Source: Clostridia bacterium
GTDB taxonomy: Bacteria; Bacillota; Peptococcia; Peptococcales; BICA1-8
Direction of reading: 5' to 3'
NCBI GenBank assembly: GCA_030154225.1
Contig: JASKKI010000007.1
Coordinates: forward strand, 1-55,154
Length of the DNA stretch: 55,154 nucleotides
Positions 27,390 through 48,770 of the stretch are shown piece by piece (the stretch's first letter is position 1; each line of letters begins with the position of its first letter). Below the pieces are notes generated by a model. That model was not told where the DNA came from. It worked only from the letters and a program-made list of their open reading frames with translations, and did no database searches. Position numbers and translations under genes: made by a program.

Positions 27390-28752
27390 AAAAATTATTA
27401 ACCAGGTAATAAATATTGTTGGCCCTGAAAATGTGCTAACAGATAATGAAGAAAGAATTTGTTATTCTTATGACGGCACTTTTAAGAGGGGGATTCCGGA
27501 TATCGTTGTTTTCCCAGGAAATACCCAAGAGGTTGTATCCATAATTAAGTTAGCAAATTCTGAAAAAATACCGGTTTTCCCCCGGGGAGCCGGTACAGGT
27601 TTAAGTGGTGGATCCATTCCTCAAGCAAATGGGATAGCTTTAGTTATGACAAAAATGAATAAAATAAAAGAAATTAATGAAAATGATCTATTAGCAGTAG
27701 TGGAGCCTGGAGTTATTACAGGTCATCTTCATCAGGAAGTAGAAAAATTAAATTTATTTTACCCACCTGATCCAGCCAGTTTGAAAACTTGTACTATGGG
27801 AGGAAATATTGCCGAAAATGCAGGAGGACCTCGGGCCTTTAAATATGGAGTAACTCGTGATTATGTATTGGGGCTGGAGGTAGTTACTCCAACAGGAAAA
27901 GTAATGCGTACAGGTGGTAGAACGGTTAAAAATGTGACAGGTTATGATCTAACACGACTTCTAACTGGTAGTGAAGGTACTCTAGGAGTAATAACTGAAA
28001 TAACTGTTAGATTAATCCCAAAACCCAAATATAAGAAAACTGCATTAGTAATATTTGATAATTTAGACGATGCTGCAAAGACTGTAACAGTCGTTATTTC
28101 TGAAGGAGTTATACCAGCTACATTGGAACTAATGGATAGGATTACTATAGCATGTGTAGAAAAAAATACTAAATTAGGGTTGCCTTTAGATGCAGAAGCT
28201 ATTTTATTAATGGAAGTTGATGGATCTGATGCACAAACAACTGAAGAGATAAATATTATCCAAAATATTTGCAAGAAAAATAACTGCCGAAGAATAGAGG
28301 TGGCTTCTACTTTTGAAGAACGGGAAAAACTTTGGAAAGCTAGAAGAGCAGTATCTTCAGCTATAGTACAGTTGAAACCTACAAAAATTTCTGAAGATGC
28401 AACAGTACCTAGGAGTAAAATTCCTGAGATGATTAGACGTTTAAGAGAGATAGCTACTAAGTATAATTTAAATTTACCTGTTTTTGGTCATGCTGGTGAT
28501 GGAAACCTGCATCCAAATATTATAGCTGATAAAAGCGATAAAGAAGAGATGGAAAGAGTAGAAAAGGCTGTTAGTGAAATATTTGAGGCAGCATTGGAAT
28601 TAGGTGGTACATTATCTGGTGAACACGGTGTTGGAATAATGAAAAAACCATATTTAGAATGGGAATTGGGTGAAGTTGGCTTAGAGTATTTAAAAACAAT
28701 TAAAAAAGCAGTTGACCCTAATAATATTTTAAATCCCGGAAAGATATTTTAG
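27382..28752 (+). CDS. FAD-linked 2-hydroxyacid oxidase, GlcD type (copy 1)
   Basis: A 456-residue flavoprotein of the glycolate oxidase GlcD / D-lactate dehydrogenase family. The PCMH-type FAD domain shows FPRGAGTGLSGGSIPQANG and PPDPASLKTCTMGGNIAENA; the C-terminal FAD-oxidase domain contains FGHAGDGNLHPNI and SGEHGVGIMKKPYLEWE. It would oxidise a 2-hydroxyacid and pass electrons to the Fe-S protein encoded next. Overlap with the racemase gene suggests that a hydroxyacid enantiomer is inverted and then oxidised. A close paralogue is at 46135. Confidence 0.93.
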   Translation: MDKKIINQVINIVGPENVLTDNEERICYSYDGTFKRGIPDIVVFPGNTQEVVSIIKLANSEKIPVFPRGAGTGLSGGSIPQANGIALVMTKMNKIKEINENDLLAVVEPGVITGHLHQEVEKLNLFYPPDPASLKTCTMGGNIAENAGGPRAFKYGVTRDYVLGLEVVTPTGKVMRTGGRTVKNVTGYDLTRLLTGSEGTLGVITEITVRLIPKPKYKKTALVIFDNLDDAAKTVTVVISEGVIPATLELMDRITIACVEKNTKLGLPLDAEAILLMEVDGSDAQTTEEINIIQNICKKNNCRRIEVASTFEEREKLWKARRAVSSAIVQLKPTKISEDATVPRSKIPEMIRRLREIATKYNLNLPVFGHAGDGNLHPNIIADKSDKEEMERVEKAVSEIFEAALELGGTLSGEHGVGIMKKPYLEWELGEVGLEYLKTIKKAVDPNNILNPGKIF

Positions 28753-43134: not shown

Positions 43135-43335
43135 ATGATCAAATCAAGAAAAGAACAGGTTACTCTGGAAGAGTGGGGCCGTTTATATGAAGCGGCAGTT
43201 GAATTTAAAAAAAATAAGTGCTGGGAATGGATGTATGACACTGATATTTTCGGTATTCAAATTAAATACATATCTTATAACTCAAACCCCCTGGAAAATA
43301 CGTTCAAACAAGCATCAACAGCATCTTTATCATAA
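43135..43335 (+). pseudogene. Truncated hypothetical protein
   Basis: A strong GAGGAGG and ATG at 43135 open MIKSRKEQVTLEEWGRLYEA, then CWEWMYDTDIFGIQ. The W-x-W-M-Y-D-x-D-I-F-G pattern recalls the N-terminus of a longer family of uncharacterised (DUF7309-like) proteins in Firmicutes; the remainder, from about residue 45, no longer matches and the frame ends at 43335 inside the convergent HD-GYP gene. I judge it a 5' fragment cut off by rearrangement. Confidence 0.5.
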
Positions 43336-44285
43336 AGAATACCCTTATTTGCTTTTAATTCTTCTAAAGCCTTATCCTTACCCAGCGCCTGCCTGTAAGG
43401 CCGATGAGAACTCATTGCTTCCACTACATCAGCAACACTTAAGATTTTTGCTTCTAAAATTATTTCATTTTCCTGTAAACCGTAGGGATAACCAGAACCA
43501 TTAATTCTTTCATGATGTTGTAATACTATTTGGCTGACAGGCCAAGGAAAATCTATTTCTTTAAGGATTTCATATCCTACGAAAGGATGTTCTTTTATAA
43601 TATTAAATTCGTGTGAACTAATTTTACCGGGTTTACTTAGTATCTCTATAGGTACGGCAATTTTCCCGATATCATGAATGAGGCTGGCGACTTGAATACC
43701 CTTAATTTTATTGGGACAGAGCTGCAGTTCTTTGGCCATTTCAACGGCCAGCTTGCTAACTCTCTGCTGGTGACCTGCTGTATAGGGGTCCCTTTTGTCT
43801 ATTATTCTTGTTAACGTTTTTATAATTGCGTCTGTTATCTTTTGTAATTTAAGAAGGCTTTCTTCCATATTCCGTTCAGCTTCTATTCTGTCTGTAATAT
43901 CCCGTACCATGTGAAAATAAGCTATTTTACCATCCAGTGTTTTTAATTCTGTAGGATAAATAGCAGAAGAAAACCACTTACCATAACTTGTGTCATAATA
44001 TTCTCTTTCTATCCCTTTCCCTTTTTCCACTGCTTCTTCCAGGGGGCATTCGGGTATGGCACACTCCGAATTATGAATAACTCTGGGACAAAACCCTCCA
44101 ATTATTTCTTCCGGATCAATTCCGAGGGTGCTTTTTACTGCTTTGTTTGCAATTAAGATTTTGTGGTCAGGGTCAACTAAAATCACGTAGAAAGGTAAAG
44201 AATCCACAATTTTTTGTATGGTTATACTTGAATTTTTATCTATTCTCTGTGTAGTATTTTCTACCAGATGTTCTTTTCCCCCCAT
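43275..44285 (-). CDS. PAS domain / HD-GYP cyclic-di-GMP phosphodiesterase
   Basis: A 336-residue signalling protein. Residues about 20-140 form a PAS sensor (IVDSLPFYVILVDPDHKILI; C-x5-C-type cysteines in HNSECAIPECP may bind a ligand or metal), and 145-336 an HD-GYP domain: GHQQRVSKLAVEMAKEL, LIHDIGKIAVP with the HD pair, HHERINGSGYPYGL with the GYP motif, and SVADVVEAMSSHRPYR. All catalytic motifs are present, so it should hydrolyse cyclic di-GMP. The start at 44285 follows GGAGG; the upstream ATG at 44333 gives 16 more residues without support. The 3' end overlaps a truncated gene on the other strand. Confidence 0.9.
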   Translation of the reverse strand: MGGKEHLVENTTQRIDKNSSITIQKIVDSLPFYVILVDPDHKILIANKAVKSTLGIDPEEIIGGFCPRVIHNSECAIPECPLEEAVEKGKGIEREYYDTSYGKWFSSAIYPTELKTLDGKIAYFHMVRDITDRIEAERNMEESLLKLQKITDAIIKTLTRIIDKRDPYTAGHQQRVSKLAVEMAKELQLCPNKIKGIQVASLIHDIGKIAVPIEILSKPGKISSHEFNIIKEHPFVGYEILKEIDFPWPVSQIVLQHHERINGSGYPYGLQENEIILEAKILSVADVVEAMSSHRPYRQALGKDKALEELKANKGILYDKDAVDACLNVFSRGFEL

Positions 44286-44544
44286 TATTAACCTCCAGTA
44301 AAAAGCTGTTAAATTATTTTTCATTTTTCCCATCTATTTCGACAAATATGGATAAATACCTTTTAGGAAATGCCATGATTTTCTTATTCATTTTTTTATG
44401 AAAAGATGAAAAAATAAGTATGATTTATTACCTAGTAATTAAAATGGTCAACTAATTTTAAATAATTAAATTCATTTTATCTCTTGATGAATAGTATTAA
44501 AGTGTAGTAATATCTTACTATATTTAAAAATTGTTATAAAACAC

Positions 44545-44790
44545 TATGAAGGGGAACAAGTACTTTAAGATCTAATTTCAGAGAGTTGGTGTTAGCTGAA
44601 AACCAACATTGGTTTTAAAGGAAATTCCGCCCTGGAGTGGGGTATGATGAATACTACCGGGTTAACATGTCCGTTATCGTGTTTATGAGTGAACTAATAG
44701 GTTTTATTTACTTATTAGTTAATTAGGGTGGCAACGCGGGTTAATAAGCTCGTCCCTGTAGAATAACTACAGTGGACGAGCTTTTATTGT
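44545..44790 (+). promoter_or_regulatory. T-box leader with terminator
   Basis: A tRNA-sensing T-box. AGAGAGTTGGTG and GCTGAAAACCAAC belong to stem I, GGAAATTCCGCCCTGGAGTG is the conserved 3' strand, AACTAATAG and CTTATTAGTT form stem III, and the T-box core AGGGTGGCAACGCGG lies at 44725-44739. The terminator AAGCTCGTCC...GGACGAGCTT with CTGTAG/CTACAG follows (44746-44786). The bulge reads TGGC, whose last base should pair with a G73 tRNA (Asn, Asp, or Trp class). The specifier triplet could not be fixed. The next gene downstream is a FAD oxidase, which is unusual. Confidence 0.88.
44746..44786 (+). terminator. T-box attenuator hairpin
   Basis: AAGCTCGTCC and GGACGAGCTT with the inner CTGTAG/CTACAG pairing give a stem of 16 bp, followed by TTATTGTTTTT. 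Mutually exclusive with the antiterminator containing the T-box core. Confidence 0.88.
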
Positions 44791-44956
44791 TTTTAAACTT
44801 TATAAAAATTTGTATTAAGTTTTCATAGAAATTAATTTGAAAATAAATAAAAATATATAATATTAAAAATTTTGGAATAATTTTGCAAATGACATATAAT
44901 TAAAAGGGGGTTTATGTATACAATATTCAAGTTTTTATTTTTTTGGAGGTGAGTAA

Positions 44957-46138
44957 ATGGTTAATATCAACATAATGTCTCCCGTGGACATTAGGGAATT
45001 GCAATCAACTATCCGAAAAGCAATTACAAACAAACAGAAAATTTTATTAAAAGAAAATCTAGAATTACAATCACTCCCTATAGATGCAAAAACCGTTATT
45101 TTAGACCTTTCTAGTTTTGATAAAATAATTGAATTAGATAAGGAAAATTTTACAGTAACCGTTGAAGGGGGAATTAATTTTCTGGAATTCCAAATTATGT
45201 TGGCCCAAAAGGGTTTTTTCTTCCCGCTAGATACCTATGCCAGTGCTAAGACCAGTTTATCCTATAATGTACTCCATGGACTTCCGTCATATACTTTAGG
45301 TGAATATGGAAATTACCGGGAATATGTACTGGGATTAGAGGCGGTTTTATTTAATGGGGATCATATCAAAATAGGTGGAAAAAACATTAAAAATGTATCT
45401 GGTCTAGATATAATAGGACTTTTAATTGGTTCTAAAGAGACTTTAGGAATCATTACTAAGCTTACTTTACGTTTACTTCCTTTTCCTGAGGAAAAACGAG
45501 TTCTTTTATTTAACTTTAAAGAACTGAAAACTGCCTTACATGTAACTAATCAACTAATTAATAAGGGTATAAATCCAGCTAAATTACATATTTTAAATGC
45601 TTCAGGTAATTCAATAATTAAAAATATTAATTTATCCAAATCTCCAGTAGTAATTGCAGAGATTGATGGCTTTAAGGCTTCACTTCCACGCCAATTAGAT
45701 GTATTTAAAGAAATAATTTCGGGACATATTTCTAATTTTAGTCTGGAAATAACTGATAATAATGAAATTACAAATTTCTGGAATAATTTTAGGGAAGCTC
45801 AATATCAAGCTTTAATTAATGTCCAAAATACAGTTTCTTTCAGTTGTATTATATCTGAAATTCCGGAAATGGTAGCAGAAATTGAAAAAGAGTTAGTAAA
45901 ATTTGAACAGGAATTTATTATACAAGTAAATGGAATTGTAGGAACTGGAATGGTGATTCCTTTAAAAAAAGTAGATAATGAGTGGATTAGTCAGGTAGCA
46001 AAGCTTATAGAAAAGTATGATGGTAAGGTATTAGGTAAAAAAAGTTTTGTAAACCAAGGTTTGAATACTATCCATAAGAAACTAATAGATGCTTTTGACC
46101 CTGCAAGAATTTCTTTTTTGGGGGGTGAAGAATTTTGA
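44957..46138 (+). CDS. FAD-binding oxidase subunit, GlcE-like
   Basis: A 393-residue flavoprotein with only the FAD_binding_4 half well conserved (FFPLDTYASAKTSLSYNVLH, GLPSYTLGEYGNYREYVLGL, IGLLIGSKETLGIITKLTLR). It lacks the GHAGDGN and GEHGVG motifs of GlcD, as expected for GlcE-type accessory subunits. The ATG follows GGAGGTGAGTAA. It overlaps the next gene by four bases and begins the operon behind the T-box. Confidence 0.85.
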   Translation: MVNINIMSPVDIRELQSTIRKAITNKQKILLKENLELQSLPIDAKTVILDLSSFDKIIELDKENFTVTVEGGINFLEFQIMLAQKGFFFPLDTYASAKTSLSYNVLHGLPSYTLGEYGNYREYVLGLEAVLFNGDHIKIGGKNIKNVSGLDIIGLLIGSKETLGIITKLTLRLLPFPEEKRVLLFNFKELKTALHVTNQLINKGINPAKLHILNASGNSIIKNINLSKSPVVIAEIDGFKASLPRQLDVFKEIISGHISNFSLEITDNNEITNFWNNFREAQYQALINVQNTVSFSCIISEIPEMVAEIEKELVKFEQEFIIQVNGIVGTGMVIPLKKVDNEWISQVAKLIEKYDGKVLGKKSFVNQGLNTIHKKLIDAFDPARISFLGGEEF

Positions 46139-47517
46139 AAGAAACCCAAATAAGTTTTCTTCGTAATATTGTTGGTAATAAAAATATATGTACGAATAAA
46201 GAGGAATTACTAGTTTATGAATATGATGCCACCCTTTTAAAAGGAGCTCCTGAAGTAATTGTATTTCCGGAAAATACTGAACAGGTATCAAATATTTTAG
46301 CATTTGCTTATCAAGAAGGCATTCCAGTAAATACAAGAGGTGCCGGAACAAACCTAAGTGGAGGAAGTATACCAGATCAGGGTGGTATAGCATTAGTCAT
46401 GACAAAAATGAATAAAGTGTTGGAAACAGATTTTAAAAATGGTGTTGTAGTAGTTGAACCAGGTGTTATTAATCAAGAACTACAAGATTATCTTATACCC
46501 CATGGGTATTATTACCCACCGGATCCTGCGAGTATGAAAGCTTGCACAATTGGAGGTAATATTGGTGAGTGTTCTGGTGGTCCTCGCTGTTTAAAATACG
46601 GAGTAACTAGAGATTATGTATTAGGAATGGAAATGGTTTTAGGTACAGGTGAGGTAGTAGTTATTGGGAGTAAACAACAAATGAATCCGGACCCGTTAGA
46701 TTTAGTCAAACTTATGGTAGGATCTGAAGGAACTTTAGGTGTTTTCACTAAATTATTTTTAAAAATCAAAAAAATACCGGAAGCTAAAAAAACAATGCTT
46801 TGTACTTTTAATAGTGTTAAAGATGCAAGTAAAACAGTGGCTAATATTATAAGTAGGGGTATAGTACCTACCACTTTGGAGATGATGGATAATCTTCTTA
46901 TTAATTGTGCGGAAGATTTTACCGGCTTAGGGTTAGATAGAAATGCCGATGCTCTATTATTAATTGAAGTTGATGGTTTTAAAGAAGAACTTGATGGACA
47001 GGTACAGGTAATAAAAGAAGTATGTGAGAAAAATTATGTCAAGGAATTCAAAATAGCCCAATCAGCTCAAGAAGTAGACCAGCTTTGGACTGCTAGAAGA
47101 ACGGTAATAGGTGCAGTTGCCAGAAAACGTCCTTCATATTCTTTGCAGGATGTTACCGTGCCCAGAAATAAATTACCTGATATCGTAGAAGCAATAGTTA
47201 ATATTTCCCAAAAATATAACTTACCTATTGGAGTTTTAGCCCATGCCGGTGATGGCAATCTTCATCCCTTAGTATTATTTGATGAACGAAATAAAGAAGA
47301 AGTCAAGAAGGTTCATGAGGCTGAATTTAACATTTGTAAAATAGCCCTTTCCTTAGGAGGTACATTAAGTGGTGAACATGGGATTGGTTTACTAAAGAAA
47401 CCTTACTTAAAACAAGAATTTTCCCCAGAGGTGTTAAAACTAAAAAAGCAAATAATGTTAGCATTTGATCCTAAAAATATCCTCAATCCTGATAAAATAC
47501 TGGAGGTGGGGAAATAG
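46135..47517 (+). CDS. FAD-linked 2-hydroxyacid oxidase, GlcD type (copy 2)
   Basis: A 460-residue catalytic flavoprotein, paralogous to the GlcD at 27382 over its entire length. FAD motif TRGAGTNLSGGSIPDQGGIA, PPDPASMKACTIGGNIGECS, the C-terminal LAHAGDGNLHPLVL and SGEHGIGLLKKPYLKQE are all intact. Substrate is a 2-hydroxyacid such as glycolate or D-lactate, but exact choice is unknown. TTG start after GGGGGGTGAAGAA. The operon GlcE-GlcD-GlcF layout suggests a membrane-associated or Etf-coupled oxidase. Confidence 0.92.
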   Translation: MKETQISFLRNIVGNKNICTNKEELLVYEYDATLLKGAPEVIVFPENTEQVSNILAFAYQEGIPVNTRGAGTNLSGGSIPDQGGIALVMTKMNKVLETDFKNGVVVVEPGVINQELQDYLIPHGYYYPPDPASMKACTIGGNIGECSGGPRCLKYGVTRDYVLGMEMVLGTGEVVVIGSKQQMNPDPLDLVKLMVGSEGTLGVFTKLFLKIKKIPEAKKTMLCTFNSVKDASKTVANIISRGIVPTTLEMMDNLLINCAEDFTGLGLDRNADALLLIEVDGFKEELDGQVQVIKEVCEKNYVKEFKIAQSAQEVDQLWTARRTVIGAVARKRPSYSLQDVTVPRNKLPDIVEAIVNISQKYNLPIGVLAHAGDGNLHPLVLFDERNKEEVKKVHEAEFNICKIALSLGGTLSGEHGIGLLKKPYLKQEFSPEVLKLKKQIMLAFDPKNILNPDKILEVGK

Positions 47518-48770
47518 TGAGTATTTTAAAAGAGGCCAAAAATTATGAATTATTAAATACCTGTAATAAATGTGGTTTTTGTGTGCAAAGTTGTAGTGTA
47601 TATAAAGAACATCTTAATGAGGCTTATGGTACAAGGGGAAGGCTGAGGTTAATTAAAGCGGTAGCTGATGGTGAGTTGGAAAGGACATCATTTTATGAAA
47701 AAATAATAAACAGTTGTTTAATGTGTGAAGAATGTTCAAAGAACTGTCCTAGTGGAGTGCAGGGTCATCTTTTGGTTCAAATGGCCCGAGAAGATTTGGC
47801 TAGAGAAAAAGGCTTACCTTTTACTAAGAAACTTCCATTAGAGAAAATACTACCTAATAATAAATTGAGAAGTTTTTCATTTAAGTCTTTTAGGAACTTT
47901 AAGAATATAGTTATTCGGCCTATCCCTTCTCTTCATAGTATAAGAGGGATAAATATAAATTCTGTAAACATTGAAAAAGAGGATTTCCTTACAAGCTATA
48001 AACCTCTCGAAGTTTCTAAAAATTCAAAGTTTAAGGTTGGCTTTTTTGTAGGCTGCTTGATGAATCATACTATGAAAGAAGTAGCTCATTCCATTGTAAG
48101 AGTATTGGTGAATGAGGGTTGTGAAGTACTTGCTCCTCAAGAACAACGCTGTTGCGGAACGCCTGCCCATACTTATGGACACTCAAAAATAACCAGGGAA
48201 TTAGCCCTGCATAATATGCGTTTATTCAATGAAATGAAGGTTGATGTAATTGTGACTGGATGTGCTTCCTGTGGCAATATGTTAAAAAATTATGCTAAAG
48301 TCTTTAAAGAGGACAATGAACTAAAGGATTTAACCTTGGAGTTTTCCGCTAAAGTAAGGGATATAACGGAATTTTTAATGGATGATTTAAAAATTTCTGT
48401 AAATAAAAATCGCAATAACTTGGTGGGAAAAGTAACCTATCATGATCCCTGTCATTTAGTCCGGGGACAAAATGTTACTTTACAGCCTAGAAAGATTCTT
48501 AGAGATATTAAAGGTATTGAATATATAGAAATGCCCGGTGCTAATAAATGTTGTGGAGCCAGTGGTATGTTTCAATATTTTTATCCTGAAGAATCAATGG
48601 CTATCAGTAATAAAAAAATTGAAAACATTAAAAAAACTAATGCTGATTATGTGGTAACAAATTGTCCGGCTTGTTATCATCGTCTTAAAGGAAACATAGA
48701 AGCAAACAAGTTGCCACAGAAGATTCTCCATATTATTGAACTTTTGGACCCTGGTAAACAAATTGTTTAA
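47517..48770 (+). CDS. Fe-S oxidoreductase subunit, GlcF type (copy 2)
   Basis: A 417-residue GlcF-type protein, paralogue of the one at 28762. The first cluster motif reads CNKCGFCVQSCSVY, with Ser in place of the usual Pro after the fourth cysteine; the second is CLMCEECSKNCPSG. Two CCG motifs follow (CCGTPAHTYG, CCGASGMFQYF). GTG start overlaps the preceding stop by one base, so the two are translationally coupled. Confidence 0.91.
   Translation: MSILKEAKNYELLNTCNKCGFCVQSCSVYKEHLNEAYGTRGRLRLIKAVADGELERTSFYEKIINSCLMCEECSKNCPSGVQGHLLVQMAREDLAREKGLPFTKKLPLEKILPNNKLRSFSFKSFRNFKNIVIRPIPSLHSIRGININSVNIEKEDFLTSYKPLEVSKNSKFKVGFFVGCLMNHTMKEVAHSIVRVLVNEGCEVLAPQEQRCCGTPAHTYGHSKITRELALHNMRLFNEMKVDVIVTGCASCGNMLKNYAKVFKEDNELKDLTLEFSAKVRDITEFLMDDLKISVNKNRNNLVGKVTYHDPCHLVRGQNVTLQPRKILRDIKGIEYIEMPGANKCCGASGMFQYFYPEESMAISNKKIENIKKTNADYVVTNCPACYHRLKGNIEANKLPQKILHIIELLDPGKQIV

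Follow-up and report, generated by a model that had tools for sequence, protein, structure and literature searches.

T-box leaders nearly always mark genes of amino acid supply, which makes their specificity a guide to gene function. Within the window, the whole 55,154-nt stretch of Clostridia bacterium DNA analysed here, the preliminary description had placed such a leader before an operon of the glycolate-oxidase type, which raises the question of which tRNA the leader senses and what its target genes do. The placement was borne out. Rfam cmscan finds RF00230 at 44537-44760 (130.7 bits against a gathering score of 93 bits, E 7.9e-29, model positions 1-219 of 219) as the sole T-box in the window, on the + strand, and one of 20 T-boxes in the whole genome including this one. 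Against dinucleotide shuffles, the fold of the 250-nt leader is better by 4 sd, and 0 of 200 shuffles fold equally well. The glcE ATG does lie about 171 bases past the terminator hairpin and is followed by glcD and glcF, as open reading frames and domain matches confirm. The features of the locus are as follows.

43275..44333, - strand: divergent PAS/HD-GYP gene, a syntenic marker that also adjoins the leader in a second genome (BRH_c20a, G001)
44484..44513, + strand: likely promoter, TTGATG, 18 nt, TAATAT, predicted from the sequence and the serCAS paralogue
44537..44760, + strand: T-box leader RNA, stem I to antiterminator (Rfam RF00230)
44626..44628, + strand: specifier triplet UCC (Ser), nucleotides 2-4 of the specifier bulge when counted from its 3′ end
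44725..44738, + strand: T-box sequence AGGGUGGCAACGCG with the bulge UGGC at 44729-44732, complementary to the GCCA end of tRNA-Ser (G73)
44747..44788, + strand: intrinsic terminator of the attenuator, predicted from the fold, with an equivalent hairpin in all aligned leaders
44957..46138, + strand: glcE-like FAD protein, 393 aa, first gene past the leader (ortholog 57% identical in G001)
46135..47517, + strand: glcD-like FAD oxidoreductase, 460 aa (ortholog 87% identical in G001)
47517..48770, + strand: glcF-like 2x[4Fe-4S]/CCG protein, 417 aa (ortholog 75% identical in G001)

The leader appears complete: specifier loop, AG bulge, T-box sequence with UGGN and terminator are all present, and its T-box, UGGCAACGCG, differs by one base from the usual UGGNACCGCG. 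Across an alignment of eight Ser leaders, 18 of the 64 consensus pairs have changed on both sides in a compensatory manner. A simple terminator scan listed none at 44747-44788, for which the scan's loop and stem limits may account. Upstream, TCTTGA and TGTAGTAATAT of the likely promoter are kept in the serCAS paralogue (TTGACA-18-TAATAT); we word this element as predicted because its score falls under the default scan threshold.

At its 3′ end the specifier bulge reads GAAAUUCCG, and the CCCU stem strand follows. By the TBDB rule, which counts back from that 3′ end and takes nucleotides 2-4 as the specifier, the triplet is UCC, the commonest specifier for Ser (0.65; PMC7778990). The pentamer TTCCG is invariant across the Ser leaders of the order, the exception being the lowest-scoring match (L094). 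The tRNA-Ser genes of this genome end in ...CTCCGCCA and hence carry G73, which the C of the UGGC bulge faces. The tRNAs for the -1 and +1 frames, CCG (Pro) and UUC (Phe), normally carry A73, a base that would mismatch UGGC.

The strongest evidence for the class, as read from sequence, is comparative. In the same genome, a second leader (G000:C6:23505-23727) is 82% identical to the glcEDF leader, with identity over GGAAATTCCGCCCTGGAGTGGGGTATGATGAATAC, an identical specifier loop, and a shared UGGCAAC bulge and promoter spacing. It precedes genes for a class-V aminotransferase (serC-like), SerA (TIGR01327, 712 bits) and SerS (TIGR00414, 592 bits), together referred to here as serCAS. The serC-like protein has the aspartate-glyoxylate aminotransferase BhcA as its top match, at 366 bits against a cut-off of 650. 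SerA, at 526 aa, fits the long PGDH model, and we take it, judging by length, to be a Type I enzyme. The SerB model gave only weak matches in this genome, which are uninformative, the cut-off being missed by half of the control genomes as well. Given this near-duplicate before serC-like-serA-serS, the UCC specifier and the G73 of tRNA-Ser, we assign the glcEDF leader to the serine class of T-boxes. The G73 read earlier from the TGGC bulge thus stands; the Asn, Asp or Trp class attached to it does not. That call was drawn from G73 alone and omitted Ser, whose tRNA also has G73, and the serine-operon paralogue and UCC rule it out.

One point counts against this assignment: tRNA-Ser genes with anticodons UGA, GCU and CGA were seen, whereas the limited search made, a single BLAST with the UGA gene as query, turned up no tRNA-Ser(GGA), which would pair exactly with UCC. 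The glcEDF leader of BRH_c20a has UGGU as its bulge, giving a G-U wobble with G73, and UGGU also occurs in two serA-linked leaders (L089, L090). The experimentally tested serA leader of Paenibacillus polymyxa, from a group of T-boxes that respond to serine starvation, likewise has UGGU; its specifier is AGC, in contrast to the UCC of the glcEDF leader and of the clostridial UCC leaders (PMC8002221). With the serine T-boxes of serA and serCA-serS operons, the glcEDF leader shares stem I, a UCC specifier, the AG and UGGN bulges and terminator/antiterminator; it differs in its predicted target, an operon for an FAD/Fe-S 2-hydroxyacid oxidoreductase in place of a gene for a synthetase, biosynthesis or transport. 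The RNA itself is an ordinary member of its class, and its target is unusual. As a separate observation, the arrangement of serS followed by tRNA-Ser genes (UGA, GCU and, in some genomes, CGA) is conserved across the order, at G000:C6:28176-33144 and at equivalent places in G001, G002, G004, G005 and G020.

The comparison of genes following this leader in relatives, suggested by the preliminary description, was informative. A GlcE search of the order returned one close homologue (57%), in Clostridiaceae bacterium BRH_c20a, a MAG of the same family and a separate genus (contig LADT01000005.1). Its gene order is the divergent PAS/HD-GYP gene, a Ser T-box (115 bits), glcE, glcD and glcF, and a second Ser leader precedes its own serC-like-serA-serS. 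The two glcEDF leaders are 16% diverged, yet both keep an identical specifier loop, T-box and terminator. In the leader tree they form one group (88.8/90 support) separate from the serCAS leaders, so a single copying of the serCAS leader, followed by retention before glcEDF, is probable.

Beyond this pair, a model (R1) built from three Ser leaders matched in 14 of the 21 genomes of the order. Besides the two glcEDF leaders, confident matches precede serC/serA/serS combinations; among the weak ones are a leucyl and a symporter leader, together with an unrelated T-box. In a phylum sample the model matched in 43 of 398 genomes, where the UCC-type matches examined precede serC, serA or serS, or phosphoserine aminotransferase, and other matches are T-boxes of different classes, before genes recognised as thrS-, tyrS- and alaS-like on visual inspection of their translations. 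Among the examined matches of these 398 genomes, none outside the Clostridia bacterium genome lies before glc genes, and no further GlcE orthologs at E below 1e-50 were seen. A contig search with GlcE alone gave no match, and one with a two-row alignment gave BRH_c20a only. Across the order, the phylum sample and the contig searches, the leader with glcEDF is thus found in two genomes only.

Two readings would deny the leader a major role at this locus. It might have lost its original gene by rearrangement, as had been proposed, and now control glcEDF by accident or be decaying. The restriction of the arrangement to two genomes fits this idea, as does the usual association of T-boxes with synthetases, biosynthesis or transport. 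However, the original leader still stands before serCAS in both genomes, and the elements preserved despite 16% divergence, the compensatory changes and the common synteny, down to the divergent gene, extend across both genera. The sequences thus already largely refute this reading, which we regard as highly improbable, and a rearranged orphan leader is rejected on the conservation in BRH_c20a. The same leader class does precede a synthetase operon, that of serS in the Clostridia bacterium genome itself, so the synthetase linkage that had been raised as an objection exists in form; this leaves regulation of glcEDF unrefuted, since a second genus has kept the duplicate. Alternatively, the leader could be functional while most glcEDF transcription starts at a promoter in the gap that separates glcE from the terminator, leaving serine control minor. 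The AT-rich 171-bp gap does hold a candidate, TTGGAA-17-TATAAT at 44872-44900, matching at 10 of 12 positions. Promoter-like matches in the gap are nevertheless at chance level (3 found, 4.0 expected), and the hexamers of this candidate are not conserved in BRH_c20a, although the leader is. The separate promoter entertained earlier therefore finds little footing in either respect, and we consider it quite unlikely to be the main origin of transcripts.

The three glc ORFs overlap, and their matches are to FAD oxidases of the GlcD/GlcE type and to a dicluster/CCG protein of the GlcF type. This composition of two FAD proteins and one Fe-S/CCG protein is shared with E. coli glycolate oxidase GlcDEF, as are the catalytic Arg, His, His, Glu and His of GlcD (R321, H370, H377, E414 and H415, all present). 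In contrast to E. coli, the gene order is E-D-F, GlcF is nearest to LdhH/TfrB models, scores fall below curated cut-offs, and a T-box is the predicted control. Because all NCBIfam matches are below equivalog cut-offs (GlcD 490.8 vs 567.9; GlcE 84.5 vs 284; GlcF 167 vs 333), we call the operon glycolate-oxidase-type, its identity as a glycolate oxidase being putative. The metal-site motifs HxxxxxxH and EHG were not recognisable by eye in the GlcE-like protein.

Several families of the phylum have GlcD orthologs, 57-68% identical to the protein here. In two of these genomes (G104 and G066), an orthologous glcE-glcD-glcF operon directly follows a glycine riboswitch aptamer (53.1 and 49.9 bits; Rfam cut-off 32 bits):

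L150:10599-10675, - strand: glycine riboswitch before glcEDF (Rfam; one of the G104/G066 pair)
L152:5320-5396, + strand: glycine riboswitch before glcEDF (Rfam; the other of the pair)

In both, the sequence just upstream resembles a second aptamer, so that the riboswitch is apparently tandem, and two candidate terminators lie downstream. These operons belong to another family of the same phylum; they share the gene order E-D-F, a GlcD 64-66% identical to the one here and an RNA sensor whose amino acid belongs to the same metabolic node, and differ in that the sensor is a glycine aptamer rather than a tRNA-Ser T-box. Genes for a CdaR-type regulator and a TRAP transporter (the latter named by eye) lie upstream of glcEDF in G104, and in G135 glcF is followed by a class-V aminotransferase gene. 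These neighbours and the riboswitch tie the operon to glycine, serine, glyoxylate or glycerate metabolism independently of the T-box. In the modelled fold of the G066 riboswitch, the P1 3′ strand appears to be part of the first terminator, which suggests an ON switch for that terminator; a second terminator follows. An ON-type glycine riboswitch would suit catabolism better than biosynthesis, and to this extent speaks against a supply function.

Catabolism is the core of one alternative, with GlcEDF as a D-lactate dehydrogenase or another 2-hydroxyacid oxidase of catabolic function, and serine deprivation as only the signal in a general starvation response that switches it on. In its favour, besides the apparent ON-type riboswitch of the relatives, GlcD scores highest among PDB sequences with LctD, from the lactate dehydrogenase/Etf complex, at 308 bits, and nearly as high with a glycolate oxidase, at 299 bits, and about ten GlcD/GlcE-family matches occur in the genome. 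The operon is without Etf genes, however; the GlcD metal site AHAGDGNLHPL matches a glycolate oxidase chain (9qgz) and not LctD, which has GHAGDGNLHIYV; and the linked regulators and neighbours indicate glycine, glycerate or glyoxylate. We consider this alternative unlikely. A different role was suggested by the Ser T-box common to glcEDF and serA, from which co-regulation would follow if GlcEDF were a D-2-hydroxyglutarate dehydrogenase that clears a SerA by-product, thereby drawing serine synthesis forward, as happens in Pseudomonas stutzeri. Coupling of SerA with D2HGDH is known, the by-product and 2-oxoglutarate reduction being reported for Type II SerA enzymes only (PMC9504171). YdiJ combines GlcD-like with GlpC/GlcF-like domains, and human D2HGDH and YdiJ share the FAD_binding_4/FAD-oxidase_C domains with GlcD; a functional link to SerA is conceivable. 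The C5-carboxylate residues of D2HGDH (Thr390, Lys401, Tyr432 and Asn443; PMC7801405) are replaced in GlcD by I325, L337, L368 and L379. This is the pattern of GlcD and D-LDH. Such recycling is disfavoured by these active-site residues together with a SerA of Type I length, and we judge it very improbable; on the same two grounds, a small 2-hydroxyacid is the likely substrate. Glycolate or D-glycerate, which would yield glyoxylate or hydroxypyruvate, is favoured with moderate confidence. A second GlcD-family gene in the window (27397-28752), 48% identical to the operon glcD, has S, S, F and N at the pocket positions.

The explanation that we consider probable as a whole is that a serine T-box duplicated from the serCAS leader controls glcEDF as an auxiliary supply of serine or glycine. 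In an ancestor shared by two genera or more, a duplicate of the serC-like/serA/serS leader would have come to lie before glcEDF. By analogy with the T-box family, uncharged tRNA-Ser would pair through its anticodon with UCC and through its free GCCA end with UGGC, so that the antiterminator is formed and RNA polymerase can continue into glcEDF; with charged tRNA-Ser, the terminator would stay in place. GlcEDF might then oxidise glycolate or D-glycerate, and a class-V (AGT-type) aminotransferase, such as that of the serCAS operon, could turn the resulting glyoxylate or hydroxypyruvate into glycine or serine. It is because such an enzyme can convert the products that we favour a supply function. 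Of the earlier suggestion that hydroxyacid oxidation is tied to uncharged tRNA, the physical part holds, a tRNA-sensing attenuator being joined to an oxidase operon; read-through into it remains a prediction.

The serine T-box on glcEDF points to a role in making serine or glycine, and a class assignment backed by a serine-operon paralogue gives these genes a testable function, while the substrate cannot be read from sequence. Orthologs with a glycine riboswitch independently indicate the same metabolic node. More tentatively, and with somewhat less than an even chance in our estimation, GlcEDF may serve an anaerobic route from glycolate or D-glycerate to serine and glycine, under T-box or glycine-riboswitch control depending on the lineage; if so, two unrelated RNA sensors have been recruited to the same complex. 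Going by the titles and abstracts of the few papers retrieved, no T-box or glycine riboswitch on a glc-type operon was apparent.

Two further T-box arrangements of this genome were noted. The leuS leader (L005:1501-1867; G000:C90:8591-8957) contains a complete tRNA-Ala(GGC) gene (L005:1744-1819) between stem III and the T-box sequence, and a BLAST search of the order found no relatives with the two halves joined in this manner. Elsewhere, two similar tandem T-boxes (L001 and L006; G000:C40:12120-12932), at a spacing of about 300 bases, precede a sodium/solute-symporter-like gene.
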